DNA from: Fischerella thermalis PCC 7521
GTDB taxonomy: Bacteria; Cyanobacteriota; Cyanobacteriia; Cyanobacteriales; Nostocaceae
Direction: 5' to 3'
NCBI RefSeq assembly: GCF_000317225.1
Contig: NZ_AJLL01000102.1
Span: forward strand, 1 to 42,896
DNA length: 42,896 nucleotides
Every line of letters begins with the position of its first letter. Position 1 is the first letter of the stretch. Below are positions 4,047-27,900 of this stretch, piece after piece. The translations under genes and the position numbers were made by a program. The notes under the pieces are model-generated. The model saw only the letters and a list, made by a program, of their open reading frames with translations, had not been told where the DNA came from and ran no database searches.

Positions 4047-7000
4047 ATGTCATCCCCCCTTGACCGCCCACTCAAAATTGAAATTAGGCTGCCATCCTAC
4101 CATCCGCAGTTACTGCAAGGACTTGATACGTGGTTGCGCTTGGGCTTGATATCTGATGCCCAAATTCGGCAATTATGTCGAGAACACCTTGTTTGCAAAG
4201 TAGTATTGGAATCTCAGATTCAACCTGAACCAGAGAAAGCAACTGTCACATCTACATCTGTACAACCTGTAACTACTAACAAAGTTCAGCCACCACCAGA
4301 ACCAGTAAAACCGAATTTTGCCACAGAAATATTGCAGTCACTTCTATCAGAATTAAGTGTGCGTTGGCTGCTGTTTTTGGGTGTATTTCTGGTAGTGTTG
4401 TCTTCTGGAGTGCTTGCAGCTAGCCAGTGGGAAAGATTTCCTGCATCAGGACAGTATGGGGTTTTGTTTGCTTATACCCTGAGTTTTGCGGGAATGAGTT
4501 TGTGGACAGCCAAGCAAAGTAATTTAAGACTGACGGCACAGACATTATTAATTGTCACGCTTTTATTGGTGCCAATAAATTTTTGGGCGATGGATCGCTT
4601 TGGGCTGTGGCACAATCCTGTGAACTGGATAGTAGTGGCGATCGCCTCTATTTGTCTAAGTGCGATTACAATTTTGATCGGCAAAAGTCGCCTATTTCCA
4701 GCCAATTTAGCAAATCAAAAATTATTTTTAGTAAATATTCTCGGCTTAAGTTATCTGCACTGGGGCTGGAATCTACCAATATTTCCCTTAATTGCCCTTT
4801 ATCTGGCAGTTGTAGGAACGACTCTGATTACCGCTTATCAAACTCGTTTGCGATCACGACAAACAGATAACGGTATTAGTTTATCTGCCTTGGTTGTGGT
4901 TTATGCCTTACTGGTATTGTTAGTTAGGGGAATTTTTATTCACCACCTAGATGTGACGCAGTTGGGGTTAGCTGTTGGTATTTGTGGTTGGCTGCTAACT
5001 TGGTTGGCACTATCGAAAGGTGTAGAGACGCGCCATGGCGCGTCTCTACAAGCCCCATCTGTACCTTGGCAACTAATCGGTGGTATCTTGTTATTCCTCG
5101 GTTGGTTGGTTTCGATAGTATCTCATCCTTGGCAGGCAATAGGTGTAAGTGGTTTGGGTTTGTGGTTTTGCGCTCGTCGTTTGCAACTATATAACCACAA
5201 GCGTGACTTTGTAGCTATTTTTGCAATCGGTTTGCAGGCTATCTGGCTGGGCTGGCGGTTAGTACCTGATGCTTTACAGCAAAGGGCGATCGCCACTGCA
5301 ACTCAACTCACCAATTCGCACAATCATCCTTGGGCGTTACTAAGTATTGCTTTATTTCCCTATGTCATTTTGATGGTGCTGCTGACAGACAAGCTGTACT
5401 GCACTAGTAGAAGAGAAATAGCTAAGTTTGGCGAAAAGCTAACATTGGGTTTTGCTTCTGCGTTAACCGTAATTGCCTTAGTTAACCCAGGATTGCGATC
5501 GCTAAATCTACTTCTATCCACAATTACTTTAGCAATTGTCACACAAAGGTACATGTATCGCGACAGAGGAACAAGGGAACAAGCAGATATTGTTGCAGAT
5601 CCCTCATCTTTGTCCTTCCCTGTCTCCCCAACCTTAATATTTCTCACTCATATCACCGGAGTGTTGACGCTGTGTTCGATCATTGATTGGGTGTTCCCAA
5701 ATCTGAGTAATGAAATCTGGGCAACTATTTTACTGGTCGTGATGGTAGCCGAGTGGCTATTTAGTCTTGGTTATGGTTGGTGGCAACGTAGTGCTTGGTA
5801 TATTGGTTTGGGACTAGCTGCAATTAGTTTTTACCTATTTTGGGTAAATGCTGAATTCGCCTGGAGAAACTATGCTGTCAATAATGCGAGTTGGGGGCTG
5901 ATTTGGTTAACTACTCCCCTAACTCTCACAGGTGTCGCTAGTCGTAGTGGTGGAGAAAAGCGGGATTTTACTACTGTCTTGAGTGTCATCGGGTTGGGAC
6001 TTACCCAGTTACTCACTTTACCTGTAGCTACAGCCAGATTAATCGGTTTGACAGTTGCTGCGGCTTTGATGTTTGTAAACACTAGTTTTTTAAGACACAA
6101 AGCTTATGCGGTAATTACAGTTGGTTTTGTTCTGAGTGCGATCGCCACCTTGCTGTGGGAAGGCGTACCCGGTTTCCCGAAACTATCAGTACAAGGGTGG
6201 TTTGTAGTCGGGGCAATAACTATCTTATGTTTATGGTTGACTCGCACAGCACTGCGACAAAGAAGTAATGAATTAGCAAATATTTATGCAGTTGCCACAG
6301 ATAGATGGGCGATCGCATTAACTGGTGTAGAGTTATTGAGTTTGACACTGCACTCTGTCTGGATTTACCAAAAAGTTGCAACTCCTGGATTATTGTATGT
6401 AGCTGCTAATGTGATTATTCTGGCAGCCATCATTTATCGTAGTTGGCGACAACCAACAAATTCTGCCTTTTATGGCATTGGTTGGTGTTTAGAATTATTA
6501 ATTGCCGAGTTGCTGGCTTTTGGTGAACGTTCGACTATTCAAATTGCGATCGCCAATATAGCCTTGGGTTTATTCTCTCAGTTGTTTGGAGAATGGTGGC
6601 AACGGCGACACCGCCTAGAAAGATTGCCTAGCAGCTTTCACATTCTTCCATTGATCTATGCAAGTTTCAGCTTACTGCTACGATTGAACACCTTCACAGA
6701 CTGGACGGGTTTGGCTTCTTTGGGTGTAGCTGTAATTGTGATTGGAGTGGGGCGACGTCGGCAAGAATTTAAACCCCTAGTTTACCTGGGAATTTTAGGT
6801 ATATCAATTTCTGCCTATGAACTGTTGTTCTATCAAATGCTGCAAGCTTCGGGGGGTGCGTGGGGCGATGGTTTAATTGCGATGTCAGCTTTAGGCACAA
6901 GCATCATGTATGCCTATCGTATATTGTCCCCTTGGCTGGTCAATTATTTACGACTGACACCACAAGAATTAAAAGTGATTGCCCATCTGCATTGGGCTTG

Positions 7001-7976
7001 GAGTAGTTTTTTGCTAATAGTTGCGATCGCCGCACCCATCCAAGTTAACCGCCTCTTGGGTTTAGGAACAGGTATATTTTTGGTTCGTTACGCCATCTTT
7101 CAGGGAAGACGCCCACAGCACAGAGAAAACAGCAGTAACTTTGCGTCAGTAGCGACACCCGATGAAATTTGGGTTTACCTGGGGTTATTAGAAGTAGCTG
7201 CGATGAGGGTTTTTTGGCGAGAAACGGCTGTGGGACAATGGTTTGCTGGGCCGTTAGTACCTTGGAATGCTGCGATCGCCTGTGTGGTTGCCTATTTCCT
7301 CTACATCTTACCTTGGGAAACTTGGGGTTGGTCGAAAAGACCTTGGCAAAGAGCCGCCTACATCATACCACTAATACTTTTATGGGAAACCAGGCTGCTA
7401 ATTCATCCAATTGCTTTGCTGTTAACAGCTGGATTTTATGCTTTCCTTGGCAAATTTAGCAATCAATTCCGTGTCACTTACATCAGCGTGGCGTTGATTG
7501 ATTGGGCTATTTTCCGCTGGTTTGCTGTCTTGGGTTTGAATGATAGTTTATGGTATGTGACAGTAATCGGCTTATCCCTACTATATGTTGCCCAATTTGA
7601 TCCCCAACTAAGACAACCAGAAATGAAAGCCAGCCGTCACTACTGGCGACTGCTGAGTAGCGGCTTAATTTGTGGGTGGGCGATATTATTTCATCAAGAT
7701 ACAGTCCTGATACCAGGAATCTTCAGTCTGATCGCTATCTTTGCAGGCTTAGGTTTGCGAGTGCGGGCTTTTCTGTATGTTGGTACAGCCACATTTATCA
7801 TCACCGCTTTTTATCAATTGGTTCTTTTTAGCTTGCGCTACCCATTCTTTAAATGGATTATTAGCTTAGTAGTGGGTATCATCTTCATTTCCATCGCCGC
7901 CAACTTTGAAACTCATCGCGCCCAGTTAAATTCTTTACTTCGCAATACAAGCGATAAATTTCAAGATTGGGAGTAG
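4047..7976 (+). CDS. Very large polytopic membrane protein, unknown function
   Basis: The 1,310-residue protein starts with a soluble segment (residues 1-100) with a DxxLxLGLISDAQIRQLCRE helix of the kind found in front of DUF2157-type membrane proteins, then a proline/threonine linker, then some thirty or more hydrophobic helices to the end. No catalytic motif is visible; tryptophan and leucine are very abundant. I chose ATG 4047 over the TTG at 4035 because the four extra codons (MLLL) add nothing. A 30-bp perfect palindrome (5021-5050) lies in frame at residues 325-335 and adds VETRHGASLQ in a loop between two helices. No tight operon partner: the next gene is 190 bp downstream. The DUF2157 link is an inference from memory. 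Confidence 0.8.
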   Translation: MSSPLDRPLKIEIRLPSYHPQLLQGLDTWLRLGLISDAQIRQLCREHLVCKVVLESQIQPEPEKATVTSTSVQPVTTNKVQPPPEPVKPNFATEILQSLLSELSVRWLLFLGVFLVVLSSGVLAASQWERFPASGQYGVLFAYTLSFAGMSLWTAKQSNLRLTAQTLLIVTLLLVPINFWAMDRFGLWHNPVNWIVVAIASICLSAITILIGKSRLFPANLANQKLFLVNILGLSYLHWGWNLPIFPLIALYLAVVGTTLITAYQTRLRSRQTDNGISLSALVVVYALLVLLVRGIFIHHLDVTQLGLAVGICGWLLTWLALSKGVETRHGASLQAPSVPWQLIGGILLFLGWLVSIVSHPWQAIGVSGLGLWFCARRLQLYNHKRDFVAIFAIGLQAIWLGWRLVPDALQQRAIATATQLTNSHNHPWALLSIALFPYVILMVLLTDKLYCTSRREIAKFGEKLTLGFASALTVIALVNPGLRSLNLLLSTITLAIVTQRYMYRDRGTREQADIVADPSSLSFPVSPTLIFLTHITGVLTLCSIIDWVFPNLSNEIWATILLVVMVAEWLFSLGYGWWQRSAWYIGLGLAAISFYLFWVNAEFAWRNYAVNNASWGLIWLTTPLTLTGVASRSGGEKRDFTTVLSVIGLGLTQLLTLPVATARLIGLTVAAALMFVNTSFLRHKAYAVITVGFVLSAIATLLWEGVPGFPKLSVQGWFVVGAITILCLWLTRTALRQRSNELANIYAVATDRWAIALTGVELLSLTLHSVWIYQKVATPGLLYVAANVIILAAIIYRSWRQPTNSAFYGIGWCLELLIAELLAFGERSTIQIAIANIALGLFSQLFGEWWQRRHRLERLPSSFHILPLIYASFSLLLRLNTFTDWTGLASLGVAVIVIGVGRRRQEFKPLVYLGILGISISAYELLFYQMLQASGGAWGDGLIAMSALGTSIMYAYRILSPWLVNYLRLTPQELKVIAHLHWAWSSFLLIVAIAAPIQVNRLLGLGTGIFLVRYAIFQGRRPQHRENSSNFASVATPDEIWVYLGLLEVAAMRVFWRETAVGQWFAGPLVPWNAAIACVVAYFLYILPWETWGWSKRPWQRAAYIIPLILLWETRLLIHPIALLLTAGFYAFLGKFSNQFRVTYISVALIDWAIFRWFAVLGLNDSLWYVTVIGLSLLYVAQFDPQLRQPEMKASRHYWRLLSSGLICGWAILFHQDTVLIPGIFSLIAIFAGLGLRVRAFLYVGTATFIITAFYQLVLFSLRYPFFKWIISLVVGIIFISIAANFETHRAQLNSLLRNTSDKFQDWE
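5021..5050. repeat. REP-like palindrome, GCGCC core, inside the membrane protein gene
   Basis: Perfect 30-bp palindrome: arm TGTAGAGACG, core CGCCATGGCG, arm CGTCTCTACA. The arms equal those of the repeats around the RAYT gene, but the core differs on both halves together. It is read in frame as VETRHGASLQ. Confidence 0.9.
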
Positions 7977-8166
7977 ATCACTCCTGTTTCTTCTGTGTGT
8001 TTTCTGTTTATCTGCGGTTCAATTAAAAAAACACAGAGACACAGAGGACACAGAGAAAATTGTGCGAAATATCTTTAGCTCAGATGTTAGTTTTTGAAAA
8101 ACACTGGGTATTCTCTTAACAGGAGGATTGCTGGTACTTAAGTATTTACCGCAGTAACTGTTGAAG
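7977..8166. other. Short intergenic region with inverted low-complexity tracts
   Basis: It contains a purine-rich ACACAGAG repeat (8030-8058) that can partly pair with the pyrimidine-rich TTCTTCTGTGTG tract at 7988-8000. It may act as a terminator for the membrane protein gene, but there is no clean stem and T-run. A possible SD-like AGGAGG (8121-8126) is too far from the next start to serve it. Confidence 0.3.
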
Positions 8167-8574
8167 ATGGCTAGTTCAGGTGAAGAATACCTAGTCGCCC
8201 ACCGTAAAAAAATAGAGCGGCGACAAAAGATTTTGACTTGGGTGTCAATTGTATCTTTTTTTGGCTCTGGGGTGTTTGCTATAGTTCCTACACTGCAACA
8301 GGCTATTCAAAACCCTAAACCAGTGACATCTTCTGCTGATACCTCGTTACAACAACAAGCCCAGGGTTTCGAGTTGGTATTACAGCGAGAACCAGAAAAC
8401 CAAACTGCATTGGAAGGGTTAGTGAAAATACGGTTGCAGCTAGGTGATATGAAGGGTGCGATCGCACCCTTGGAAAAGTTGGTGAAATTGAATCCAGAAC
8501 GACAAAATTACAAAGTCCTCTTAGAAGAGTTGAAAAAACAAGTCAGTAGCAAGAACAAACAAGAGAATAACTAA
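8167..8574 (+). CDS. Membrane-anchored TPR-like protein
   Basis: The product is 135 residues from ATG 8167 (TTG 8161 is two codons upstream). The N-terminus is basic ([10 protein letters not shown]), followed by one transmembrane helix ([20 protein letters not shown], about residues 22-42), a linker, and one and a half TPR-like repeats: [19 protein letters not shown] and [20 protein letters not shown]. The tail is lysine-rich. The topology suggests a TPR facing the periplasm or thylakoid lumen, anchored in the membrane. The gap to the downstream glycosyltransferase gene is only 14 bp, so the two are probably co-transcribed, and this protein may be an assembly partner for the surface-glycan machinery; that role is inference. 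Confidence 0.75.
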
Positions 8575-8588
8575 TTAAAAATATAAGT

Positions 8589-11500
8589 ATGAATATGAAT
8601 AATGAAAATACTAATTCTGAACTGAACCGCTTAATTCCCCCAGAAATTAAAAATGATGAATTTTATGCAATTCTTCAAAGAATTACTAGAGAAGAAAATA
8701 TCAAAACTGTTTTAGAAATCGGTTCATCTTCAGGAGAAGGAAGTACAGAAGCATTTGTTACAGGAATAAGACACAATCCTCACAAACCCATCTTATTTTG
8801 TATGGAAGTGTCAAAAACTAGATTTACTGAATTAAAAAAGAGATACGAAAATGATGATTTTGTAAAAGTATATAACTTATCTTCTGTACCTATAGAAAGT
8901 TTTCCTAACGAAAAAGAAGTTGTTGATTTTTACAATAATACAGAAAACAATCTAAAAAATTATCCGTTAGAACGTGTGCTTTTTTGGCTACATCAAGATA
9001 TTGAGTATGTAAAGAGTTCTGGATTATCCGAGCATGGAATTAGAAAAATCAAACAGGAAAACAATATTGATTATTTTGATTTAGTACTGATTGATGGTTC
9101 AGAATTTACCGGGAATGCTGAATTCAATGAAATTTATGGAGCAAAATATATTTGTTTAGATGATATCAATACATTTAAAAATTATAGAAATTTTCTACTA
9201 TTATTGGAAGATTCTAGTTACACTTTAATTAATTGTAATAAAAGAATACGTAATGGCTATGCTATTTTTAAACAAAAAAATGTTAAACCAGTTACTTATC
9301 AAACTATTCATGATGCTGTTAAATCTATACCAGGGTTCATGATTTCTGGGCAAGAAGAATACCTTTTTAACAAAGTACAATCTCTTCCAGAAGAAGCTGT
9401 GATAGTAGAGATTGGTTCCTTTAAAGGGCATTCAACGGTTGCTATGGGCTATGCTTGCATAGGAACAAATCGAAAAATTTATGCCATTGATACATGGGAT
9501 GGTAATGATTCCGATTTTTCTGAGCGACAATTTTTTGAAATTTGGCGGCAAAATATTCAAATCAATGGACTTGAGGAATATATTATACCATTACGTGGTT
9601 ACTCCCATGATGCGTTGAGTTGTTGGCATGAATTAACAGATGGTAAAAATATTGACTTTATTTTTATTGATGGTTCTCACCAGTATTTAGATGTTTTAAA
9701 AGATTTTGAATTATCATTTCCATTGGTCAAAGATGGTGGTTGGATAGCATTTCATGATGTTATACATACATGGCCTGGTCCAGAACGTGTATGGCATAAA
9801 ACAGCGAAATACATTCTCGTAAACCATGAATATTCCTCAAGTATCGCATGTGGACAAAAAAAAATAACTGCTACAAACTCATCATTAACAACAGGTTTGC
9901 CAATTCACTTTTTTACTATTGTTCTAAATGGACAACCATTTATCCGTTACCATATTGAAATTTTCAAGCAACTACCTTTCAAATGGCATTGGCATATTGT
10001 TGAAGGTGTGGCAGATTTAAAACATGACACCAGTTGGAGTGTAAAACTCGGTGGGCGTATTAGTGATGAAGTTCATAAAAATGGGCGTAGTTGTGATGGT
10101 ACTACGGAATATCTAGATGAATTAGTGCGCCAGTACCCAGATAACATTACAATTTATCGTCAACTAGAAGGTGTTTTCTGGGATGGAAAGCGGGAAATGG
10201 TAAATGCTCCACTTGCCAATATCCAAGAAGAATGTTTGCTATGGCAAATAGATGTAGATGAACTATGGACATTAGAGCAGATTTGTACTGCTAGAGAAAT
10301 ATTTATTAGTAACCCTGAAAAAACAGCCGCTTTCTATTGGTGTTGGTATTTTGTAGGTGAACAACTAATTATTAGTACTCGTAACTGCTATGCACAGAAT
10401 CCTCAACAAGAGTGGCTAAGAACTTGGAGATATAAGCCAGGATATATTTGGGCTGCACATGAACCTCCTGTACTAGTCGAAACTTTACCAGATGGTCAAT
10501 TTAAAAATGTAGCTGCCGTAAATCCTTTTTTACATCACGAAACAGAACAGCATGGTTTAGTATTTCAACATTTTGCCTATGTAACACCAGAGCAATTAAA
10601 ATTTAAAGAACAATACTACGGTTACAGTAGTGCTGTTGCTCAATGGAACGCTTTGCAGAAAACTACCAAATTTCCAATTTTGTTGAGGGAATATTTTCCT
10701 TGGGTGCAAGATGAAACCCAAGTAGATATTGCACATACTAAGGGAATAATACCAATAGCACAAAGAGAGAGTGGCAATAATATTTGGCGATTTTTACAAC
10801 CAGATGAAGTGCAGCAAGAAATTACTCAGATCAACAAAGTATCACCAATAATTATTGTAGATGGTGTATTCTTTCAACTGTATCAAACTGGTATTGCACG
10901 TGTTTGGAAATCATTATTAGAAGAGTGGTCAAACAATGGGTTTGCTAAACATATTATTGTACTTGACCGCGCTGATACTGCTCCTAAAATTCCTGGTATT
11001 AGATACCGTACAGTACCAGCTTATGACTACGATAATACTGATGTAGACCGAGAAATACTACAGCAAGTTTGTGATGAAGAAGGTGCTGAAGTTTTTATCT
11101 CCAGTTATTACACAACCCCGATAACAACGCCTTCTGTTTTCATGGCACATGACATGATTCCCGAATTAATGGGATGGAATTTGAGTCAGCCGATGTGGCG
11201 AGAAAAACACTATGGTATTCAACATGCCACAGCTTATATTGCTGTTTCCGAAAACACAGCCAAAGATTTAGTTAAATGTTTCCCTGAAATATCATTAGAG
11301 TCTGTAACGGTTGCCAAAAACGGCGTTAATCATCAGGTATTTTTATGCGCTACTCCAGAGGATATTAATAGGTTTAGAATAAAGTACGGTATTTATAAAC
11401 CCTATTTTATTTTGGTAGGCCCTGGCAATGGATATAAAAACAGTGTTTTATTTTACCAGGCTTTTTCTTTGCTAGCAAGTAGCAATGGATTTGATATTGT

Positions 11501-15816: not shown

Positions 15817-16401
15817 AAAGTGGGGATGTTATAGGCAATTGCTGTGTTCTAAAAGTAACTTACCCACTTAAAATGACTTTCATATCACTTTGGTAAAAAA
15901 TTTTTCTCGCCAGCGCGGAAAAGGGACATGGGGAGGTCTTTCAAGGGCAGGGATTTAAAAATTAGGTAGTATTGGCTTATAGACTTTGACAGTGCTTTGA
16001 ACTACACGTCCAGGTATCTGTTCTAATTGAATGTCGATAGCATTTGGGAAAAGTAGTTGGTGAGTGTTTGTGCATAACTTTTGCCCACCCAAGGCTTGAT
16101 AATGCTGCACAAAAAAGTATCCTTGTGCCTAGTCCTGAATTTTTGTCATCTACTATAAGTGAGAAATTTACTTGAAGTTGACTGATCAATTGCACTCACT
16201 TTTGAATCACATTTGTTTCTAATACTGGATGTACAGGTCAACTTTAGTAATTAGCTAGCAACTAGAACAACAACTAACAGACTAATAATCTTAATTTACC
16301 CAGTCACCTCAAGGATGAAGTATGAAGAATGAACAATGTTCACACTTTATCCTTCCTACTTCATCCTTTTTTAGTCAGTGTTAAATATAAGGGCAAATAA
16401 G
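15817..16401. other. Divergent intergenic region between pilin and P-type ATPase genes
   Basis: I see no supported gene. A 72-codon minus frame (15977-16195) has no recognisable composition or ribosome site. The region must hold the pilin promoter on one side and the ATPase promoter on the other; no confident -10/-35 pair was found. The main structure is the hairpin at 16311-16374. Confidence 0.4.
16311..16374 (+). repeat. Heptamer-derived hairpin before the ATPase gene
   Basis: AAGGATGAAGTA (16311-16322) pairs with TACTTCATCCTT (16357-16368), and TGAACA-A-TGTTCA (16330-16342) forms an inner stem. The left arm reads as heptamers ATGAAGT, ATGAAGA, ATGAACA. A T-run follows, so it looks like a terminator, yet no plus-strand gene lies upstream. 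It may act in the ATPase 5' leader. Confidence 0.5.
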
Positions 16402-19152
16402 ATGACAGCAACATCACAAGAGATAATTCAGTCAAGTCAATGGCATCATCTGTCTATACAAGAAGTAACTCGGCATTTAGATACTAATTTAGAAACGGGT
16501 TTAACCTCTGCTGTCGCGGCAAAAAAACGAGAACGTTTTGGTGCGAACGAACTCAAAAGCAAACCTGGAACAAGTCCATTACTAAGATTTCTCTTGCAAT
16601 TTAACCAACCACTGCTGTACATCTTGTTGATTGCGGGTGCAATCAAGGCATTTTTGGGGCAGTGGGTGAATGCTGGGGTGATTTGGGGTGTAACTCTGAT
16701 TAACGCCATTATTGGTTTTGTGCAAGAATCTAAGGCCGAAAGTGCGATCGCTGCCTTAGCTTCCTCAGTAAAAACCAATGCAACCATCATTCGCAATGGT
16801 CAAAAGATGCAAGTTCCTTCCACAGAGTTAGTACCGGGAGATGTGGTACTACTTGCTTCTGGAGATAAGGTTCCAGCCGATTTGCGTCTGGTGCAAGCAC
16901 GGAATCTGCAAGTGAATGAGTCAGCACTCACAGGTGAATCAATTGCAATTGAAAAAAACATCCAACTGCTGGACATAGATACACCATTAGCAGAACGGAC
17001 AAACATGGCTTATGCTGGTAGCTTCGTCACCTTTGGTACTGGCAAAGGCATTGTTGTTGCCATAGGAGATGCTACAGAAACTGGACGCATTTCCCAGCTC
17101 ATAGAACAGGGAACTAGCCTGAAAACACCATTAACCCGCAAATTTGACAAATTTAGCCGTACCTTGCTGTATATCATTTTAGGGATAGCAGCATTGATGT
17201 TTGCGGTTGGGTTGGGATACGGCTACTCCTGGGTAGAAATGTTTGAAGCTGCGATCGCCTTTGCTGTCAGTGCCATTCCCGAAGGATTACCAGCTGTTGT
17301 CACGGTTACACTAGCAATTGGTGTTTCCCGCATGGCGCGGCGTCATGCTATTGTTCGCAAATTGCCAGCAGTGGAAACCCTCGGCAGTGCCACAGTTATC
17401 TGTTCTGATAAAACTGGAACCCTGACAGAAAATCAGATGACTGTACAAGCAATATATGCAGGAGATCAAAATTATACTGTCACTGGTGTAGGCTATGTCC
17501 CACAAGGAAAAATTTTACTCAATGAAAAGCCAGTAAATTGGGATAATTCTTCTGCTCTTCAGGAATGTATAAAAGCCGGACTATTATGTAATGATTCACA
17601 CCTAGAAAAAAAGAACGGACAGTGGCAGGTTGTTGGTGATCCCACAGAAGGAGCATTGATAGTTGTTGCCAACAAAGTTGGAATTACCCGTAGCAGCTTA
17701 GAAGAGGAAATGCCCAGGTTAGATGTCATTCCCTTCGAGTCTGAGTTTCAATACATGGCAACTTTGCATGAAACTTCCTCATTCGCAAGTGATAAAAAAC
17801 AAGGAACTATCTACGTCAAAGGTTCGGTCGAAGCAATTCTCAAACGTTGTCAACAGATGTTGGACGTAGAGGGGAACCTTATCCCTCTGGATGCAGAAAC
17901 TATACATCAGGAAGTTGATGCAATGGCTCATCAGGGTTTACGGGTGTTAGCATTTGCCAAGAAAACTGTGCCAGATGTAGAGACGTTGTGCACAACGTCT
18001 CTACAACATGCAGATATCGAAAATGATTTGATTTTCTTGGGATTGCAGGGGATGATCGATCCACCTAGAAAAGAAGCAATCAAAGCAGTTCAAGCCTGTC
18101 AAGAAGCTGGTATTCAAGTCAAAATGATTACAGGCGATCATGCAGTCACTGCCCAAGCAATAGCCAGAAGTATGGGCTTCAACAAAAACGGTGAAGTTCT
18201 GGCCTTTACAGGAAGTCAACTTGCTCAAATGGGTAAATCAGAACTTGCTACAGCCATAGAAGATGGAGTGGTGTTTGCTCGTGTTGCACCAGAACAGAAA
18301 CTGCGTATTGTTGAAGCACTACAATCTAGAGGCGAAGTCGTCGCCATGACAGGGGATGGTGTCAACGATGCACCCGCCCTCAAACAGGCAGATATTGGTA
18401 TTGCGATGGGAGGTGCAGGTACAGAGGTGGCGAAAGAAGCCTCTGATATGATTTTGACCGATGATAATTTCGCTTCCATAGAAGCAGCAGTTGAAGAAGG
18501 GCGGACTGTATATCGAAACCTGCTCAAAGCGATCGCCTTCATTTTACCCGTCAACGGTGGTGAATCGATGACGATTTTGATTAGTGTACTACTTGCCAGA
18601 GAATTGCCGATTTTATCTTTACAAGTTCTGTGGTTGAACATGGTGAATTCCATCACCATGACTGTACCCTTAGCCTTTGAGCCAAAATCTGAACGGGTGA
18701 TGCAAAAACCACCACGTAATCCCAGTGAACCTTTACTATCCCCAAGTCTACTCCAACGCATCTTGGCAATTTCCATCTTTAACTGGATTTTGATTTTTGG
18801 CGTATTTGAATGGATACAACAAACCACAGGAAATATCAACTTAGCTAGGACAATGGCAATTCAAGCCTTAGTAGCTGGACGAATTTTTTATCTTTTAAGT
18901 ATTAGTCAATTAGGAAGTGCTGTTATTGCCAGTATTCGAGGAATTAGACATAGAATTAACGATACCTCAGCAATTGTAATTGGAATTGCTTGTACTGTAA
19001 TTTTGCAGATAATTTTTAGTCAATGGAACTTGATGAATAGCTTATTTTCTACAGCACCACTAAACTTAAATCAATGGTTAATTTGCTTGCTTATCGGGTT
19101 GCCAATGGTTATAGTATCCGCATTAGTCAACCGATTTGACCCTCTTGACTGA
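16402..19152 (+). CDS. P-type (P2-like) cation-transporting ATPase
   Basis: The 916-residue pump starts at ATG 16402 (GTG 16378 would add eight residues). It has an N-terminal cation-ATPase domain (FGANELKSK), the TGES actuator loop (SALTGESIAIEK), AIPEGLPAVVTV in M4, the phosphorylation motif SDKTGTLTENQ with Asp336, the KGSVEAIL nucleotide-domain motif, MITGDH, and MTGDGVNDAPALKQADIGIAMG. The last part has the usual C-terminal helices. It would pump a cation across the plasma or thylakoid membrane at ATP cost. M4 is of the calcium-pump type, but M6 (LWLNMVNSITMTVPLAFEP) lacks the usual calcium-binding Asp, so specificity is open. A palindrome is in frame at residues 525-535 (VETLCTTSLQ) in the N-P region. 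Confidence 0.88.
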   Translation: MTATSQEIIQSSQWHHLSIQEVTRHLDTNLETGLTSAVAAKKRERFGANELKSKPGTSPLLRFLLQFNQPLLYILLIAGAIKAFLGQWVNAGVIWGVTLINAIIGFVQESKAESAIAALASSVKTNATIIRNGQKMQVPSTELVPGDVVLLASGDKVPADLRLVQARNLQVNESALTGESIAIEKNIQLLDIDTPLAERTNMAYAGSFVTFGTGKGIVVAIGDATETGRISQLIEQGTSLKTPLTRKFDKFSRTLLYIILGIAALMFAVGLGYGYSWVEMFEAAIAFAVSAIPEGLPAVVTVTLAIGVSRMARRHAIVRKLPAVETLGSATVICSDKTGTLTENQMTVQAIYAGDQNYTVTGVGYVPQGKILLNEKPVNWDNSSALQECIKAGLLCNDSHLEKKNGQWQVVGDPTEGALIVVANKVGITRSSLEEEMPRLDVIPFESEFQYMATLHETSSFASDKKQGTIYVKGSVEAILKRCQQMLDVEGNLIPLDAETIHQEVDAMAHQGLRVLAFAKKTVPDVETLCTTSLQHADIENDLIFLGLQGMIDPPRKEAIKAVQACQEAGIQVKMITGDHAVTAQAIARSMGFNKNGEVLAFTGSQLAQMGKSELATAIEDGVVFARVAPEQKLRIVEALQSRGEVVAMTGDGVNDAPALKQADIGIAMGGAGTEVAKEASDMILTDDNFASIEAAVEEGRTVYRNLLKAIAFILPVNGGESMTILISVLLARELPILSLQVLWLNMVNSITMTVPLAFEPKSERVMQKPPRNPSEPLLSPSLLQRILAISIFNWILIFGVFEWIQQTTGNINLARTMAIQALVAGRIFYLLSISQLGSAVIASIRGIRHRINDTSAIVIGIACTVILQIIFSQWNLMNSLFSTAPLNLNQWLICLLIGLPMVIVSALVNRFDPLD
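17976..18005. repeat. REP-like palindrome, TTGTG core, inside the ATPase gene
   Basis: Perfect 30-bp palindrome with arms TGTAGAGACG and CGTCTCTACA and core TTGTGCACAA. Read in frame as VETLCTTSLQ between KKTVPD and HADIENDLIFLG, just before the conserved LQGMIDPPR segment, so it sits in a surface loop of the cytoplasmic domain. Confidence 0.9.
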
Positions 19153-19824: not shown

Positions 19825-19907
19825 AGGATTTTGAGCAACGCATAATTAAATTCGGTCGATGTCTATTAAATTGCTATTAGTTGGGGTTCTGTGTCTTTTT
19901 AAAGAAA

Positions 19908-19931
19908 AAGGAGAGCCATCGCTCTCCTTTG
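19908..19931 (-). terminator. Bidirectional Rho-independent terminator
   Basis: Perfect 10-bp stem AAAGGAGAGC/GCTCTCCTTT with a 4-nt loop. On the minus strand it is followed by TTCTTT, placing it about 30 bp after the 1,184-aa surface protein gene. It could also stop transcription from the plus side. Confidence 0.8.
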
Positions 19932-19962
19932 TTCTTGTCATGGATAATTGTGGAGTAGGGAA

Positions 19963-22900
19963 TTATTTCACCCGTCCTCGGAAGCGAATGAAACCATAGG
20001 AATTGGTGGGTGTTCCAGAAGCGGTGGCGTTGGGTAAATCGCCTAAATTCACCACAATTGCACCATTAGTATTTTCACCACCACAGTCAACAGTAGGATA
20101 AACATCTGTTGGATCTTCTTGGGGTGGGAAATACTGCGCGACATCTCCATCTTTGATATTGGTAAGAGATTCGGTATTACCATTATATTGCCAGACAATT
20201 CCTCGGTCAGTGTTTTGTAAACCCAGGTTGTTTTTGGTAGCAAAGTTGTTAAAAGCAGTGGGGATGAAGGTGACATTATTGGGGATGCGATCGCACACTA
20301 ATACATTCTTGGCTTGATTATCTCCAGCTGAGAGATAGTAAATCGTGTATTCCACCTCATCCCCAGGATAAATTTTACCACCGTTGATACCACCAATGAG
20401 AAATGTATTGGGATTAGGCCATTTATCCGTGTCCTTAGGATCGGGTGTGAGAGTATCGAGATTGTTATCATCATAGGGATTATTGGGGTCATCTTTATAT
20501 TTATCTAATTCATCGCCCCCGTTAGTAGTCACGCTGTGATTGATAGCTGTAATTCTTTTGACTAAAATTACATTCGGATTATTTGCAGTAGCGGCGACGT
20601 TGTTAGTGTCTGAGGCACTATTATTATCGTTGTTTGGATCGCTGACAGTTGGTGGAGTTGTGACTGTAGCAGTATTAGTAATTGTACCACTGGCGTTAGA
20701 ATCAACTTGGGCATCAACCGTTAAAGTTGCAGTACCATTTTTAAGCAAGCTAACTGTGATATTCAGCTCACCCGTACCCGATGACTGATCGCAGCTAGAA
20801 CCATTACTAGCATTACAAGACCAGTTAGTAAATGTTAAACCAGGAGGAACTAGATCAGCGACATGGATGCCAGCGACATTATCAGGGCCATTATTCCGCA
20901 CTACAATCGTGTAGGTAGTTGTTGCTCCTGGTGCCACAGAAGAGACTCCATCATCTTTTTTGACTACTTCGATATCGGCTGTACCCAACAGAGTCAGTGT
21001 TACTGATGGCTTATTGTTGTTAGTCACACCCTCGTTAGAAGTCACTAAGTTATTTGGTAATTCATTCGTAAGATTACCAACAAAATCTGATGTAACTTTG
21101 ACTTTGAGCGTACATTGAGCCCCAGCATTGATAGTGGCATTACTCAGAGAAACTTGATTGCTACCAGGATTGGCTACTATAGTGCCACCGCTACAACCAG
21201 AACCTGTAAAAGTGGCATTAGGTGAACTGGCAATTTTCATGCCCGTTGGAAATTCGTCTACTAATGCAACACCTGTCAATTTGATGGCATTGGCATTGTT
21301 ATTCAGAATCAAAATATTTAGCGTCGATGTATCACCATAGTTGATGCTTGTGGGTGAGAAAGATTTGTTTAAAGTCACGAAACTATTAATCCTAGTTACT
21401 GTCGCCTTGGCATCACTTGTATTGCTTGCACCTTGGTCAGTAATGACAGAATTTTTGGGAATAATATTTTCATCAGAGCCAGTTGTATTAGGTACTTGCA
21501 CATTAACACTAATACTGCAACTTCCGACTGTGGGCAATGTACCACCGCTCAAGGTGATCTGCGTGCTGTTAGTAGGGGCACTGACTGTGCCATTGCAAGA
21601 ATTTGTTAGGTTGGGTGCAGAGCTAATTTTGTGTCCAGTGGGTAAATTATCAGTTAGGTTGATACCTGTGAATGCGGGTGCGCCACTATTACGGGTGACA
21701 GTGATAGTCAAACGAGTGACGCCTCCCACCGGAACAGTTACTGGAGAAAATGATTTGCTGAGGCTTAAAGCAGGCTTCACATCTAGTTCCGCAGTAGCGA
21801 TCGCAGTATTGTTGCCCAAATCTGTCTTTAAACCATTAATTGCGATCGTATTTGTACGTTTACCTATAGGAGCATTGATGGCAACTTGCACAGGCACGGT
21901 AATTGTACATGAGCCTTTGGCAGGAATTGTGCCACTATTCATAGTAATAACTGTGCTGCCTGCTGTAGCATTCACCGTACCACCGCTACAGGTGGTGCTA
22001 GCCGCAGGACTAGAAGCAACGGTGAACCCCGAACCCATTGTTGTCAAGTTGTCGGTGAAAGATGTGATGGTGGCTTGGGTATTTGCCGTGTTAGAGAGGG
22101 TAATTGTGAGAGTGCTTTGTCCTCCCTGTACACTCGTACTTGGTGAGAAGCTTTTGCTCAAAGAAACAGGCGTAGCCTGGCTGACTGTTAAAGTGGCGTT
22201 GGTTGCAGGGTAATTTACCCCATTCAAGTTGCCAGCTGGTATGTCGTTTTTGTAGCTACCGCTTGTATTCGCAGTCACATTTACCTGAATCTGACAGGAA
22301 CCAGAACCACTACCTGAAGGTGCAGGAGGAACTGTACCACCTGAGAGTTGGACTTGAGTGGCAGTAAACGTTACTGTGCCACCGCAGGTATTTTTTACTA
22401 ATTCAGTTACTGTCAGCCCAGAAGGCATGGTATCAGTAATATTAGCTGAGGTAATTGGCGTACTGTTGAAGTTACGTAGGGTCAAAGTGAGTACAGATAT
22501 CTCACCTGTTTGGATATTACTAGGAGAAAAGGCTTTATTGACTTCGGCTCCTGTTTGTACCTTCACAGAACCTTCAATCGGGCTAGTGTTAGTAATTCCT
22601 TCTGTTGTAATGACATTTTTTGCAGCAATTGTATTTTTAACGTTGCCGTTTTGGAAATCATTGGGACTACTGGCTTCTAATTTAACGGTGACAGTACATG
22701 AACTACTAGCCGGGATGGTTCCACCACTCAGACTAACTGTATTCGACCCAGCAACGGCAGTAACAGTGCCACTACCACAGGTTGTTGAGGCTGAAGGAGT
22801 TGTTGCTACTTTCAAAGGAGCTGGCAAGTTATCAGTGAAGCTTGCGTTAGTTAGTGGGAAACCATTTGAGTTGTTTAAGGTAATGGTCATTGTAGTGGGT

Positions 22901-23517
22901 GAACCATTACCCTGAACAGTGCCAGGAGAAAAGGATTTAGAACCTGTGATTGGTACACCAGAGGAGACAGTGAGAGTAGCGTTAGCTGCTAGTGGGTTGG
23001 TGCCTTGAGAAGAGGTAACGGTATTTGCCGCAATTGTATTGACGTAGGTATTGGGAGTAGATGCAATTACCTTCAAAGTGATTTTGCAATTACCAGGAGT
23101 ACCACTTGTTGCTGCTGGAATAGTACCACCGGAGAGTTGAATACTAGTACTACCAGGGTTAGCTGTCACCGTTCCGCCACAGGTATTGCTCATCATCGCT
23201 GGGCTAGCAATCACAAGTCCAGATGGCAAATTATCAGTCATGCTAGTGTTGGTTGCGGCCGACAAGTTGGAATTAAATAGTTGTATTGTTAGGGTTGAAG
23301 TTTGATTAACAAAAATAGATATGGGGTTGAATTCTTTATTAACTGCGACCGCAGCATGAGCTTTACCTGCACTCAATCCTATGCCAACAAAGGCAAACCC
23401 AAAAGACAAGCAAGACAAAATTATTGGGGACTGTTTAAGTGTTTGAATGGGGGTTTTTTGAATAATTTTGCTTCGGGATAGATGCAATTCCCGCAGGTAC
23501 TTAAATAAATATTTCAT
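19963..23517 (-). CDS. Large exported repeat protein with DUF11 domain
   Basis: The 1,184-residue protein has a signal peptide (hydrophobic LSCLSFGFAFVGIGLSAG, cleavage near HA|AVAV, residue 55). Six tandem repeats of about 130 residues follow, each opening like SKSFSP and G-S-x-LTITL-x-N, then TDNLP-x-GL, TCGGTVTA and LSGGTIPA-x-x-CTI, with paired cysteines. A seventh, standard DUF11 domain starts at ADIEVVKKDDG (about 845). A distinct C-terminal domain ends FIRFRGRVK. Repeat residues point to stacked Ig-like beta sandwiches in a long cell-surface fibre or adhesin. No membrane anchor or sorting motif is visible at the C-terminus, so attachment is unknown. It is downstream of, but separated by the RAYT region from, the surface operon of similar proteins. 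Confidence 0.83.
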   Translation of the reverse strand: MKYLFKYLRELHLSRSKIIQKTPIQTLKQSPIILSCLSFGFAFVGIGLSAGKAHAAVAVNKEFNPISIFVNQTSTLTIQLFNSNLSAATNTSMTDNLPSGLVIASPAMMSNTCGGTVTANPGSTSIQLSGGTIPAATSGTPGNCKITLKVIASTPNTYVNTIAANTVTSSQGTNPLAANATLTVSSGVPITGSKSFSPGTVQGNGSPTTMTITLNNSNGFPLTNASFTDNLPAPLKVATTPSASTTCGSGTVTAVAGSNTVSLSGGTIPASSSCTVTVKLEASSPNDFQNGNVKNTIAAKNVITTEGITNTSPIEGSVKVQTGAEVNKAFSPSNIQTGEISVLTLTLRNFNSTPITSANITDTMPSGLTVTELVKNTCGGTVTFTATQVQLSGGTVPPAPSGSGSGSCQIQVNVTANTSGSYKNDIPAGNLNGVNYPATNATLTVSQATPVSLSKSFSPSTSVQGGQSTLTITLSNTANTQATITSFTDNLTTMGSGFTVASSPAASTTCSGGTVNATAGSTVITMNSGTIPAKGSCTITVPVQVAINAPIGKRTNTIAINGLKTDLGNNTAIATAELDVKPALSLSKSFSPVTVPVGGVTRLTITVTRNSGAPAFTGINLTDNLPTGHKISSAPNLTNSCNGTVSAPTNSTQITLSGGTLPTVGSCSISVNVQVPNTTGSDENIIPKNSVITDQGASNTSDAKATVTRINSFVTLNKSFSPTSINYGDTSTLNILILNNNANAIKLTGVALVDEFPTGMKIASSPNATFTGSGCSGGTIVANPGSNQVSLSNATINAGAQCTLKVKVTSDFVGNLTNELPNNLVTSNEGVTNNNKPSVTLTLLGTADIEVVKKDDGVSSVAPGATTTYTIVVRNNGPDNVAGIHVADLVPPGLTFTNWSCNASNGSSCDQSSGTGELNITVSLLKNGTATLTVDAQVDSNASGTITNTATVTTPPTVSDPNNDNNSASDTNNVAATANNPNVILVKRITAINHSVTTNGGDELDKYKDDPNNPYDDNNLDTLTPDPKDTDKWPNPNTFLIGGINGGKIYPGDEVEYTIYYLSAGDNQAKNVLVCDRIPNNVTFIPTAFNNFATKNNLGLQNTDRGIVWQYNGNTESLTNIKDGDVAQYFPPQEDPTDVYPTVDCGGENTNGAIVVNLGDLPNATASGTPTNSYGFIRFRGRVK

Positions 23518-23805
23518 TGTTTAATTCCAACAAAATGTTTATATTGCTGATATTGGCTTTACTAACTGTAATTGCAACATTGTTTGGTATACCCAAGGTA
23601 TAACCAATAAGAATATCAGTATCGCTGGTATCAACTTGGATGCAGTACTAGGAGTAGTGATGGGTACAGAGGTCGTCGAGACGGTAGTACTGGTAATGCT
23701 GCGATCGCTAATTACCTTCTCACCTGTATCGTTAAAATCTCCATCACGATTCAAATCAATCCAGCCACTTAAGTAACCCGTACCAAAGGTAGTAATGTCT
23801 CCAAC
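23501..23805 (-). pseudogene. Frameshifted remnant of a GEVED-type surface protein
   Basis: From a stop codon at 23806-23808 the frame reads VGDITTFGTGYLSGWIDLN then RDGDFNDTGEKVISDRSI, which matches the calcium-rich GEVED domain opening (WIDFNRDGDWND-x-GE). After STASK the frame turns into a hydrophobic run, whereas the next frame continues sensibly: VDTSDTDILIGYTLGIPNN and VAITVSKANISNI, running to a stop at 23501, inside the next gene. So at least one frameshift and a missing N-terminus are implied. It lies directly upstream of the 1,184-aa gene and may be what is left of a larger upstream gene, lost when the RAYT region arrived. Confidence 0.6.
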
Positions 23806-24068
23806 TTAGTCTGAGAAAATTTTTCATGATAAATTCTCTACATCGGACGTTTTTCATTTAGACACCCCATCAATTGACCGCACAATGACGTTGACAGCAG
23901 GTTCAGATATCCCATATTGGGGATAAATAGCAATCATACTTAGGTATTCCCTAGTCTTTAGATTACCCAATTTGTACGAAAATTTACTATGATTATCTAT
24001 ATTTACTGGGGCGATCATTCTTAGGTACATCACAAATTATTCAATAAAATAGAATTTGCAATTTTCAA
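23806..24068. other. Intergenic region with an 18-bp direct repeat
   Basis: No gene is seen. GCAATCATACTTAGGTAT (23930-23947) and GCGATCATTCTTAGGTAC (24011-24028) match at 15 of 18 bases and lie 81 bp apart. The meaning is unknown; they could be operator sites for the surface gene or ends of a lost element. Confidence 0.35.
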
Positions 24069-24141
24069 GACGTTGCATTGTAGAGACGTTGCATTGTAGA
24101 GACGTTGCATTGTAGAGACGTTGCATTGCAACGTCTCTACA
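24069..24141. repeat. REP array downstream of the RAYT gene (16-bp units)
   Basis: Three exact direct copies of GACGTTGCATTGTAGA (24069-24116) lead into a complete palindrome (24111-24141) with arms TGTAGAGACG and CGTCTCTACA. Only the left half is repeated. The array ends 16 bp from the RAYT stop codon. Confidence 0.92.
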
Positions 24142-24157
24142 TTCGGGGGTGTAGGTA

Positions 24158-24745
24158 TCACATCCATAAATTTGCAGGGTTATTTTTGTCTTCTTCCCAT
24201 TTAGTAGGATTGTTAATGATGTATTCGCGAATGCGGTCTAAAGAACCATCAGCACGAATGATGTGGTCGTAGAATCGTGATTGCCAAGCAAAATGGTTAT
24301 GACCGTTTTCCCGACACCAACGGGTGACAACAGATTTGTATGATCGTGCGATCGCACCTAACGAACCTGGTTTGGGAGATATGTTAGACATGAATTGACG
24401 TTGGGTGATGTCCCATGGCACATCATTTTGTGTAGAGACGTTGCAGTGCAACGTCTCTACGTTTTCGGGACGGTCGATAACAACAATGCCGTGTACGTGA
24501 TTGGGCATAATGACGTAGGCATCGATGTAGGTGTAATCAAAATGGTTGGGAATGTCTACCCAGAATCTTTGGGCAATTTTCCCAATTACTGATAAATGCA
24601 CCTGACCTGAAACCACGTTACCGAAATAATGGTCACGATTTTTGGTACAAATGGTAATGAAATACGAACCGTTGGCGGCATAGTTGCGATTTGGCAAACG
24701 GGTTGATTCAACCCGGTATTTACCTTGGAATTTTGGTTGTGTCAT
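24158..24745 (-). CDS. REP-associated tyrosine transposase (RAYT, Y1/HUH family)
   Basis: The 195-residue protein is a Y1 transposase of the REP-associated type. YFITICTKNRDHYFG (residues 28-42) is the family opening, MPNHVHGIVVI (80-90) holds the HUH metal-binding motif H83-V-H85, and WQSRFYDHIIR (154-164) contains Tyr159, the likely nucleophile; RIREYIINNPTKW closes the domain. RAYTs cut and join single-stranded DNA at palindromes (REP) flanking their gene. Here such palindromes occur as arrays on both sides, and one copy (24431-24460) is read in frame as [10 protein letters not shown] (residues 96-105), in the linker after the HUH strand. All key residues appear intact. The gene is single, flanked by surface protein genes. 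Confidence 0.88.
   Translation of the reverse strand: MTQPKFQGKYRVESTRLPNRNYAANGSYFITICTKNRDHYFGNVVSGQVHLSVIGKIAQRFWVDIPNHFDYTYIDAYVIMPNHVHGIVVIDRPENVETLHCNVSTQNDVPWDITQRQFMSNISPKPGSLGAIARSYKSVVTRWCRENGHNHFAWQSRFYDHIIRADGSLDRIREYIINNPTKWEEDKNNPANLWM
24431..24460. repeat. REP-like palindrome inside the RAYT gene
   Basis: Arms TGTAGAGACG and CGTCTCTAC around TTGCA-G-TGCAA. The transposase gene carries a copy of its own presumed target repeat, in frame, between the HUH strand and the C-terminal helices. Confidence 0.9.
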
Positions 24746-24774
24746 GGTTACAATTCCAAATCCGTTACCCTGGG

Positions 24775-24892
24775 GTAGAGACGTTGCATTGCAACGTCTC
24801 TACACATTGCAACGTCTCTACACATTGCAACGTCTCTACACATTGCAACGTCTCTACACATTGCAACGTCTCTACACATTGCAACGTCTCTA
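24775..24892. repeat. REP array upstream of the RAYT gene (18-bp units)
   Basis: A complete palindrome (24775-24803) is followed by direct copies of ATTGCAACGTCTCTACAC, six units in all (24788-24892), the last cut short. Only the right half is repeated, the mirror of the downstream array. It lies 29 bp before the RAYT start codon and 16 bp after the barrel gene's stop. Confidence 0.93.
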
Positions 24893-24908
24893 AATTTGAT
24901 TGGTAATT

Positions 24909-27900
24909 TCATGTCTCACCCCTTTGCACCCCCAGCGTCGCCCTCTTCAATTTCTCCACTAAGGTTTTGGTAGATTCTTGTTGTTGACGTGGCGGAATTT
25001 TTTGCAATCCGAAACCATCAAATAATTCGTTCAACTTCACCGTTAAACCCAGATACGGGCCACCTGCGGAACGAGTACCCGAAAAGTCGCGGTCATCAAC
25101 TTTACCAAAGACATAACCAGCAGACAGACGTAAGTTGGGTGTGAGGTAGTAACCTGCTTCGACAACAAAGCCTGTTTCTGTGTAATTATTTTGACTAATC
25201 AATCGTGCTTCACCGACTAAATCCCAGCTGTAGCCTAGACGATATGTTGCCCGTAATTGTCCTAAGTTAACTGTACTAGTTCCAACTAAATCTTCAGCTA
25301 AATATGAAGTACTATTACGTAGAGCATACTTCCCATAAAATTCCCATTGCCAATTGGGGGCGTAGATAGCTTCCACAGCAAAGGTGTGGTCTTCGGAACC
25401 TGTACCACTGCCCAATAGAACAGTATCAGGAATGACGGCAGGATTTTTGCGATATTCATAACGCAGCAAGGCGTTGAACTTGTCGTTTTGAGGGTCGCGG
25501 TAGGCTAAACCGACTTTCAGGTTGGCTGTGTCTCCCAGTCCTGTTAGTTTTTGATTGGCAGAATTTGCCTGTTGATAACGTACCAAGGCTGTAAGCGATG
25601 GTGATATTTTACCTGTTGCACCTGCGGTAATTACGGTGTTGGAACCACGATCAGAACTACGATGTTCAAAACGGGCGCTGGCTTGGAACTTCGGGTTATC
25701 AGTGTATTCCAGACCAATGCTGTAACTATCGCCACTACCAAAACCCAAGGAGTAGCCACTTTGACCGACAGCAAAAGGTTGGGAAAATTGTTGCCCTGTG
25801 GCGGTGCGTCCGAAGAAGTTGCCGAAGACATGTTCGTAAGCAAGATTGAGTTTTAAGCCAGGGGCGATAGTCCAACGGTTATTTAATCCTATGGCTCCTT
25901 GGGTAGTCAGTTCATTCGCCCCACCCAAAATTGTGTAACGACCAGTGATAGTCGTATCTCTACCAAGTTTGTGTTGACCATTGACACTTAAACTGGTGAT
26001 GGAGTGATCGTCATATTGACCGCGAGTGAAAAACTGCTGTGCCAAACTGACGTTGATACCAGGTACAACAGCCCAATTTAAACCAAACGCAGTCCGGTCT
26101 GGATAAACAGCATCAGTTTCTGAAGATAGAGTTAATTCATTGATGGCTTGGAAAGTGAGGGTTTTAGTAATCGGGATTTTAAGTTGCGATCGCAATTGAT
26201 CGGAATTTGTAGAGACGTTGCATTGCAACGTCTCCAGACACAAGCGGTCTTCCCTGTCCCGATGTACCCAATCCACATCTAAGGTGGCTTTACCAAAGCG
26301 CTGTTGAATACCCGCAGTAATTGTTGTCAGAGAATTATCAACTTTGCTTCCAGGAACTGCTTGTGTGCGCGGTGCAAATAACTCTTCAAAAGTATCCAGG
26401 GGTTGGGGTGCAGTCCCAAAATTATCTTCGTGGTCGTATTGGAACCGCAAATTAGTAGTAGGTGAAATTTTTCCTGTTAATTGCGCCCCGTAGCGAGTTT
26501 GACCAGGGACAAAGCTGATTGTGGCATTGTTAGTAAAGCCTGCATCTGTGGAACGGTAATAGGTGCGCCCTCGTAAACCGGGGAAAATTTCTCCCTCGGC
26601 TTCAATCCGGTAGGCAGAACCGCTCACCTTTCCTGAGATATCCTGGGGCTTAAGCCCCAGGCTATTGGTAGAATGGGCATATTCTGCGATCAATTTGCCT
26701 CTTGAACCCAAAGCAATCTGTGCATCTGCGCCGTAGAGTTCAAAGTCGTGCATCCCCTGGTCTTGTTGGAAGTAAGTCGTTCCTATCCAACTTTCTTTGT
26801 TGAGGGTGCGGTCAAAATTGTATTGTAGACGACCAGCATAAATATTACTATCGGAACCACTACCTTTGTATTGGTAGGTGACAACTATACGCCGGACTAA
26901 AACCTGTCCGTCCTCACCTAAATCAGTACGTTGAATGGGTTCCCGGAATAAGATAGTGCCGCGATCATAGTCTATCTCGTAATCAGGGCCGCGATTAAGT
27001 TGCTTACGTTCCAACACAGTACCAGGGCGGTTGAGTTCTTCCAACTCAATGGTGATGTTTTCACTACCCGGAACTAGTAATCTACGGGAAAGGAAATAGT
27101 AACCACTCGTACCATCAGGAGCAATGGTATCCCGTTGGAAAGCTTCGATGTTATTGCCATAGAAAGCAGTAATTTGCAGATTTCCCAGGCTGTAGTTTCC
27201 CTTGAAGCCGTGTAATTGGCGTGTTACTGAGGTAAATTGCTGGGATGAACGAGCAAATTCCTGGGTGGTGTAGTCACCCCACATGAAATAATCGGGGTCA
27301 GCACCAGGTATTTTTGGCGATCGCTCAAATCGTGCATAGACGCTGTCAATCGAAGGAGTCAGCACTTCAATTTTGGAACTGTCGCCGTAGACGGGATAGT
27401 TTTGATCGTTGAATTGGAAAGCACGAAACAGCTTGTTATCACAGTTGCAGTCTTCATTGAGATTACGAGAGCTGTTGTAAGCACCAGTAAATAACCATTC
27501 TCCAATCGCCCCAGTCGCAAAGACCGACGAACGCACATCTAATTGAGTGCTATTGTCTTTCTTCGGGGGGAGAAAATCGCGGAAACTGCTGTAGTAATCT
27601 GTACCCCTCGCACCCAAACGCACATCTACTATTCCTGTTACCAAACTTGGACGCAGGGCTGTTTCAAATTGCAGTTGAGTGTATGCTTCTAAATCATTGG
27701 CGATCGCTCGAATTCTCACAGTTTGAGCATTCAAACTTGATTTGAGCGAGGCGGTAAATTGTCCTTTCTTTACCTCTACTTGAAATCCGGGTTGGTCTGG
27801 TTTGAAATCTGCGCCGACAAACTCGCCAGCAGTAGATACGAGAGTAACAACTCCATCACGGTTGGAACGGTTGCCGTTTTCATCTCGGAGTTCCCCCTTG

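Follow-up and report, generated by a model that had tools for sequence, protein, structure and literature searches.

Palindromic GTAG repeats in genes of Fischerella: replacement of native codons, a reading phase preferred within the genus and probable change of stems in place

The window analysed here, a stretch of 42,896 nucleotides from the cyanobacterium Fischerella thermalis PCC 7521 (contig NZ_AJLL01000102.1), carries copies of a repetitive extragenic palindrome (REP) that are translated in frame within four different proteins, among them a REP-associated tyrosine transposase (RAYT). Comparison of these and further copies across genomes makes it reasonably probable that REPs enter genes by replacing native codons, survive there in the phase that reads VET, and later have their stems rewritten in place. 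Long-lived coding slots together with in-place stem change are apparently the new part.

The repeat is a palindrome of the form GTAGAGACG-core-CGTCTCTAC, mostly 28 or 29 bp long, as a rule with a T before it and an A after it. It has GTAG at the 5' end and CTAC at the 3' end of a palindrome in the 20-40 bp range and occurs in many dispersed copies, and the window palindromes are therefore 'double-foot' GTAG REPs, the kind tied to RAYT subclass 2.4. Across the whole genome (G000; 5.44 Mb, 140 contigs) 57 places match the pattern, at least one copy is present in 29 of 40 relatives (an own pattern variant being used for the relatives), and the window holds 20 instances of the half-site GTAGAGACG, where 0.15 would be expected. 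All further counts for this strain refer to a sample of 65 distinct copies within about 0.83 Mb (the loci overlap) of the 5.44 Mb, made up of those pattern places that were listed, the window included, plus imperfect copies nearby. The four coding copies of the window and their host genes are:

5021-5050 (palindrome 5022-5049), plus strand: REP with CGCCATGGCG core, in frame as VETRHGASLQ in a DUF2157-like membrane protein.
4035-7976, plus strand: host gene of this copy, 1313 aa, DUF2157-like, below the Pfam cutoff.
17976-18005 (palindrome 17977-18004), plus strand: REP with TTGTGCACAA core, VETLCTTSLQ in a calcium-type P-ATPase.
16378-19152, plus strand: host gene, the calcium-type P-ATPase, 924 aa.
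24431-24460 (palindrome 24432-24460), minus strand: REP with TTGCACTGCAA core, located in the linker that follows the HUH strand of the RAYT.
24158-24745, minus strand: RAYT, 195 aa, with NHVH, WQ and YIINNP; Pfam Y1_Tnp.
26208-26239 (palindrome 26209-26237), minus strand: imperfect REP with TTGCAATGCAA core, in a barrel-like protein.
24909-28682, minus strand: host gene of the 26208 copy, 1257 aa.

All four copies lie where a preliminary description of this DNA had placed them, each in a long open reading frame (ORF) with coding-like codon use on both sides, and all are read in a single phase, as had been claimed (phase 0, GTA-GAG-ACG, VET). The copy at 26209 is imperfect, its CTCCAGA end giving LET instead of VET, and its designation as an outer-membrane barrel is the earlier reader's label for a 1257-aa protein with sub-cutoff Pfam hits only and no NCBIfam hit. 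The wider claim that REP DNA is translated as part of real proteins is likewise supported. Further hosts assigned by NCBIfam comprise TilS, BchH (two sites), a YifB-family AAA ATPase, SMC (two sites), SufD, a heavy-metal P-ATPase and a polyketide synthase (PKS), followed by weaker, sub-cutoff assignments to a TPR protein (L085) and a GlcD-like protein (L100). Such in-frame presence in unrelated ORFs is a trait of Rickettsia palindromic elements.

The mode of entry can be read from alleles that lack the palindrome. When same-site copies are merged, coding copies of the genus fall into 16 independent sites (a merging made by reading of listings, not computed), and at seven of the 16 an empty allele is comparable. 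The net gain caused by the REP is 12 nt in the barrel protein (against 6/6 relatives), in the Ca-ATPase (against G004 and G011) and in TilS (against nine genomes), 18 nt at L100 (against G002, G006 and G004), 21 nt in BchH-a (against nine genomes) and in PKS-a of the sister genome G001 (against G002), and 0 nt in SMC-1 (against G004). As the gain is near 30 nt at none of the seven sites (0, 12, 18 or 21 nt), the palindrome has replaced native codons. Homologues had been predicted to lack exactly 10-12 residues; the difference is instead 0, 4, 6 or 7 residues, and clean insertion of that exact length is rejected by the net gains of 0-21 nt. All seven coding events thereby differ from the precise gain without target loss that characterizes clean insertion of the IS200/IS605 type. 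In the recent cases (barrel, L100, BchH-a and PKS-a) flank identity with the nearest empty allele is 91-99%, which makes a single event the simpler reading. The copy at 5021 cannot be counted as a clean insertion either: its linker is hypervariable among 15 homologues and is filled with other repeats in relatives. As a non-coding control, 14 copies were aligned to their orthologous places; two gave no alignment, no clean empty site was found, and the remaining copies lay in heptamer repeats, had a REP in both strains or aligned poorly (too repetitive).

It had further been expected that homologues without the REP would lack the VET-x4-S segment, and those of the short form do so (TilS in 9/13 genomes, BchH-a in 9/10, the barrel in 6/6), the TilS and BchH-a slots being empty in distant genomes. 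That VET-x4-S is instead a native protein motif matched by the palindrome through chance seems very improbable to us. Similar words do occur in distant BchH-b homologues (VEKQNLASV in G004), and the TilS homologues of G001, G002 and G006, which have the long form without a palindrome, keep VET or VEA (not the S). Against this, short-form homologues of TilS, the barrel, the ATPase and BchH-a have no such motif, and the outer nine bases are identical across unrelated genes; the native motif is rejected with the exception of BchH-b, where the distant similarities lie.

For the reading phase, a copy was counted as coding when the ORF across it extended for 40 codons or more on each side and showed coding-like codon use on both. 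Spanning ORFs with fewer than 40 codons on either side or a codon score of at most 0.03 were dropped, among them a phase-1 ORF at window position 5022, a phase-0 ORF at 24775 and phase-1 ORFs at L013 and L097; two weak ORFs of G022 (L318 and L319) were retained. Ten of the 65 sampled copies of PCC 7521 are coding, all ten in phase 0, followed by 8/69 in G001 (seven phase 0, one phase 1), 3/15 in G002 (all phase 0) and 5/107 in G022 (four phase 0, one phase 1). G000, G001 and G002 together have 20/21 coding copies in phase 0, which corresponds to 15 of the 16 independent sites (binomial p=5e-4) and, once the four starting copies are set aside, to 11/12 (p=0.006); the four window copies alone are weak evidence (p=0.125). 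The lone phase-1 copy of the genus is the SMC site in G001. Stop codons offer a control: where the VET phase is closed by a stop, 0/57 sampled copies are coding, against 27/215 of those open in both phases (Fisher p=0.002), and within the genome of PCC 7521 the figures are 0/24 against 10/41 (p=0.01).

Because genus counts and the VET-closed control agree, the phase bias is real in this lineage; across phyla it is absent. A multi-phylum sample (117 loci, among the matches listed) holds 22/165 coding copies, ten in phase 0 and 12 in phase 1, rows that are not all independent, since three phase-1 rows, two or more of which fall within RAYT ORFs, come from L153 alone; its named cyanobacteria divide three to two (L116, L154 and L163 in phase 0, L159 and L164 in phase 1). 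A universal peptide rule is therefore wrong: one phase is strongly preferred in the genus as a lineage bias and is no law, as the SMC site of G001 and the phase-1 RAYT linkers L409 and L410 also show. The related statement that two phases of the palindrome are open is correct for the arms of the four window copies and incorrect for TAGCA, the most frequent arm in this genome, which places a TAG in the VET phase. On a simple reading of the bias, the VET...SLQ peptide would be milder than CRD...VST. A founder effect, in which few old insertions in one genus fixed the phase and the peptide was never selected, appears to us rather unlikely. The mixed phases of other lineages (10 vs 12) and the slots common to different genera would fit it; a ratio of 15 to 1 over sixteen sites, some of which were acquired inside the genus (BchH-a, PKS-a, L100, barrel), and the lack of VET-closed copies in genes of the sample do not.

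Once acquired, coding copies persist. In BchH-b, SMC-0, YifB and SufD, several genera carry the element or an eroded version of it at one and the same position, and the slots that coding copies form in core genes (BchH, SMC, SufD, TilS, YifB) are long-lived, which looks new. Between orthologues the inner stem can differ while position, length and phase agree: SufD has TTGCATGCAA in G000 and CGCCATGGCG in G001, the Ca-ATPase has TTGTGCACAA in PCC 7521 and TGCCATGGCA at the same site in its sister G001, and PKS-c has TGCCATGGCA in G001 and CGAGATCTCG in G002. Stems were compared between differing alleles that are both paired at 13/14 positions or more, a condition that holds for these three and for TPR. 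In the first three, 20/30 inner positions differ, equal to ten stem pairs changed on both arms, and no pair is changed on one arm only; their outer arms differ at 2/54 positions and their flanks at 9, 11 and 21 of 180. In SufD one outer pair, mispaired in G000, is also changed on both arms. The flank counts of two BchH-b comparisons ('0v6' and '0v1'; 121 and 126 of 180) were left out, a perfect palindrome having produced strand artefacts there.

TilS suggests a direction of such change. The allele of PCC 7521 is paired at 14/14 positions, those of G001, G002 and G006 at 8, 6 and 6 of 14, with similar non-palindromic sequence of equal length. The tree ((G000,G001),G002) against G006 and G004 has support of 1.0 over 13,030 columns (from five locus sets, of which two in BchH overlap, so that some columns are counted twice), and given this topology and the pairing in relatives, the TilS palindrome of PCC 7521 would most simply be derived in that strain. 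At SMC-1 a right-arm change is common to G001 and G002, and the matching left-arm change is present only in G001. The SufD slot of G006 (L387) apparently contains two tandem REP-like stretches, both in the SLQ phase.

Several observations weigh against replacement, phase survival and rewriting as a common history, beside the mixed phases across phyla. Empty alleles are few (seven), and the one for SMC-1 comes from G004, which diverges by 27%; insertion followed by trimming would be an alternative to a single replacement event, though a less simple one. The PKS-c pair is likely orthologous, yet a second gene of G002 (L257) has the PKS-c core of G001, so that paralogues may be compared there. 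TPR, the fourth well-paired comparison, shows one pair changed on both arms, two on one arm and no clean swap, changes that look like ordinary drift. Several slots are merely eroded (SMC-1 of PCC 7521 and SMC-0, BchH-b and YifB of G002, each at 8/14), and rewriting is therefore not constant. Finally, 8/10 coding copies in the sample of this genome have inner stems unseen in its non-coding copies, and with no such donor present, copying from the present intergenic pool is a poor fit. The commonest stems of the sampled copies, the TAGCA type (21) and TGCCATGGCA (12), differ from the stems present in the strain's genes, which are mostly gene-private.

The RAYT of the window belongs, by its motifs and internal REP, to what we take from its sequence as subclass 2.4. 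It matches NCBIfam NF047646 with E=1.5e-16, below the family cutoff, carries the motifs NH[IFV]H, WQ and YIxNNP (as given in PMC6006769), is flanked by REPs and has a REP in frame between HUH and Tyr. Relatives at E 1e-20 occur in 42 of 80 family genomes. Among 30 RAYT loci read, 14 have a recognisable linker REP, twelve in phase 0 and two in phase 1 (L409 and L410), a tally made by reading of listings rather than computed; by eye, most of the other 16 have an apparent short remnant or expanded copy, and L408 and L413 have neither linker REP nor remnant. In the 13 typable loci, the first four stem bases of linker and flanking REPs agree at 47/52 positions against 23.1 in shuffles (0/100,000 shuffles as high), with identity in 8/13 loci (p=6e-5); labels were entered by hand, and the p values are optimistic as related loci are not independent. 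The multi-phylum loci contain four RAYT-profile ORFs, in three of the 117 (Balneolia, Prevotella and Bacteroidales), all with a REP inside, which is no rate since these loci were picked by REP pattern. A structural model built on four sequences (mean pLDDT, the predicted local distance difference test, 68) places linker residues 95-115, with the element at 96-105, below pLDDT 50 without helix or strand over the element; the linker is thus modelled as disordered, which would fit tolerance of the element.

Several features of RAYT genes stand beside these results. In the linkers of L419, L403, L418, L422 and L423 the REP is expanded to coding tandem repeats (DHGAS/GDGAS; VETRNFTD; VETRNPNN and the like), and the linker slot also grows by short in-frame duplications. 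In L153 (Bacteroidales) one RAYT ORF has two identical phase-1 REPs at two places, with another in a shorter RAYT-like ORF nearby. The RAYT relative at G021:C1:2766874-2767434 (L424) has two in-frame stops and is probably a pseudogene. Half-REP tandem arrays bracket the RAYT gene of the window, with left-arm units on one side and right-arm units on the other. The remaining features of the window are:

24070-24140, plus strand: REP with a tandem array of 16-bp left-arm units, 3' of the RAYT gene.
24775-24892, plus strand: REP with a tandem array of 18-bp right-arm units, 5' of the RAYT gene.
23537-24971, strand unassigned: RAYT unit, missing in G002, which has 63 nt at the orthologous position.
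30912-30940, strand unassigned: further imperfect REP, between ORFs.

In the scheme we propose, a palindrome of about 30 nt arrives at the expense of some 9-30 nt of native codons, as the seven sites show. Replacements that break the frame or hit function would be lost, and those in loops, linkers and coiled coils would persist. In the genus, the survivors use the VET...SLQ or VET...VST phase and rarely (C)RD...VST or RD...RLY, most simply because the VET-phase peptide would be better tolerated. A surviving copy can then persist as a slot common to strains and genera, whose inner stem, to judge from three site pairs and TilS, can be swapped for another palindrome with outer arms, length and phase kept. 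Acquisition and rewriting could be one process, conducted either by a RAYT acting at the two GTAG feet or by polymerase template switching between dispersed REPs via their shared nine-base arms.

Regarding the agent, a RAYT is a plausible mover of REPs and is favoured because linker and flank stems match in RAYT loci; what weighs against it is G012, a genome with 50-51 REP copies and yet no match to the RAYT of PCC 7521 at E 1e-20, where a more distant RAYT is possible. In a mechanism that builds on the preliminary description (movement by a RAYT, tolerance in loops), the RAYT inserts the element cleanly, in the manner of IS200/IS605 relatives, into single strands, loops tolerate it and trimming of neighbouring codons follows later. 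The REPs inside and on both sides of the window RAYT and the agreement of linker and flanking stems would suit this account, which we nevertheless consider improbable, as 0/7 events gain about 30 nt, recent ones with closely similar flanks included, and as G012 is rich in REPs without a relative of this RAYT at that threshold. Greater weight, though still short of an even chance, goes to replication template switching or gene conversion between dispersed REPs, which would spread and rewrite palindromes independently of any RAYT. It would account for inner stems that change as a unit while the outer nine-base arms stay, for the arm-to-arm matching in SMC-1 and for junctions that show replacement rather than insertion, and template switching is described to homogenise inverted-repeat arms in yeast genes (PMC8604942). 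A RAYT-specific process would rather predict that RAYT-linker stems match their own flanks, as they do, and the scarcity of coding stems among non-coding copies is also unfavourable to switching between dispersed repeats.

Part of this picture is established. Several families of GTAG-tagged palindromes of 20-40 bp exist in filamentous cyanobacteria, some of them translated in ORFs, and their peptides have been compared with Rickettsia elements (Di Nocera et al., 2013, PMC3733652); a preferred phase, codon replacement and orthologous stem swapping, all three present here, are not described in the accessible text of that paper. Double-foot GTAG...CTAC REPs with the TnpAREP/RAYT subclass 2.4 are abundant in cyanobacteria and Bacteroidetes, and in-frame REPs inside RAYT genes generally lie between HUH and Tyr (Quentin et al., 2018, PMC6006769). 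Relative to what the accessible part of that study reports, the present copies also occupy core genes, prefer one phase in a genus and show a linker-flank stem match. The idea that a protein-entering repeat of cyanobacteria is new does not survive these two papers, nor does novelty of a REP inside a RAYT, which PMC6006769 already contains. Rickettsia palindromic elements are alike in being palindromic DNA in frame in unrelated genes, where they are tolerated (PMC3767692, PMC6649704, PMC10969869); they measure about 100-150 bp and decay, losing repeat identity over time (PMC6649704), whereas the REPs described here measure 28-30 bp and can, as it appears, be re-perfected in place. In the mostly open-access literature that was searched, we found no report of coding-REP stem swapping or of a cyanobacterial phase bias.

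The repeat is not confined to the window and its genus. Records that carry it include Nostoc, Calothrix and Dulcicalothrix as well as other phyla; these records and a gene for magnesium chelatase subunit H fit a cyanobacterial source. Records L114-L193 (Bacteroidales, Anaerolineae, Moranbacteria and others, cyanobacteria too) contain GTAGAGACG...CGTCTCTAC palindromes whose cores differ. Non-coding copies at L084, L247, L275, L280 and L301 lie inside GTTAGTA/GTTGGTT heptamer repeats that are highly variable among close strains. The small dispersed repeats of Nostoc, which Elhai and colleagues reportedly treated in 2008, are likewise said to be short hairpins of heterocystous cyanobacteria, often within heptamer repeats.

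Altogether, these comparisons point at a selfish palindrome as a source of protein variation in bacterial core genes, by replacement rather than by insertion, and they suggest that palindromes in genes need not simply decay. Orthologous slots in close strains offer sequence-only tests of REP movement, a process that is still poorly understood, and multi-residue changes in such slots can mimic positive selection. We speculate, and hold it to be a tentative idea rather than a likely one, that coding REPs could be swappable cassettes, in which a REP-directed process repeatedly overwrites the inner stem in a loop of an essential protein. If this were true, a cassette swap would alter about four neighbouring residues at once with frame, length and phase kept, and the cassettes would act as a palindromic multi-residue mutator of core genes.

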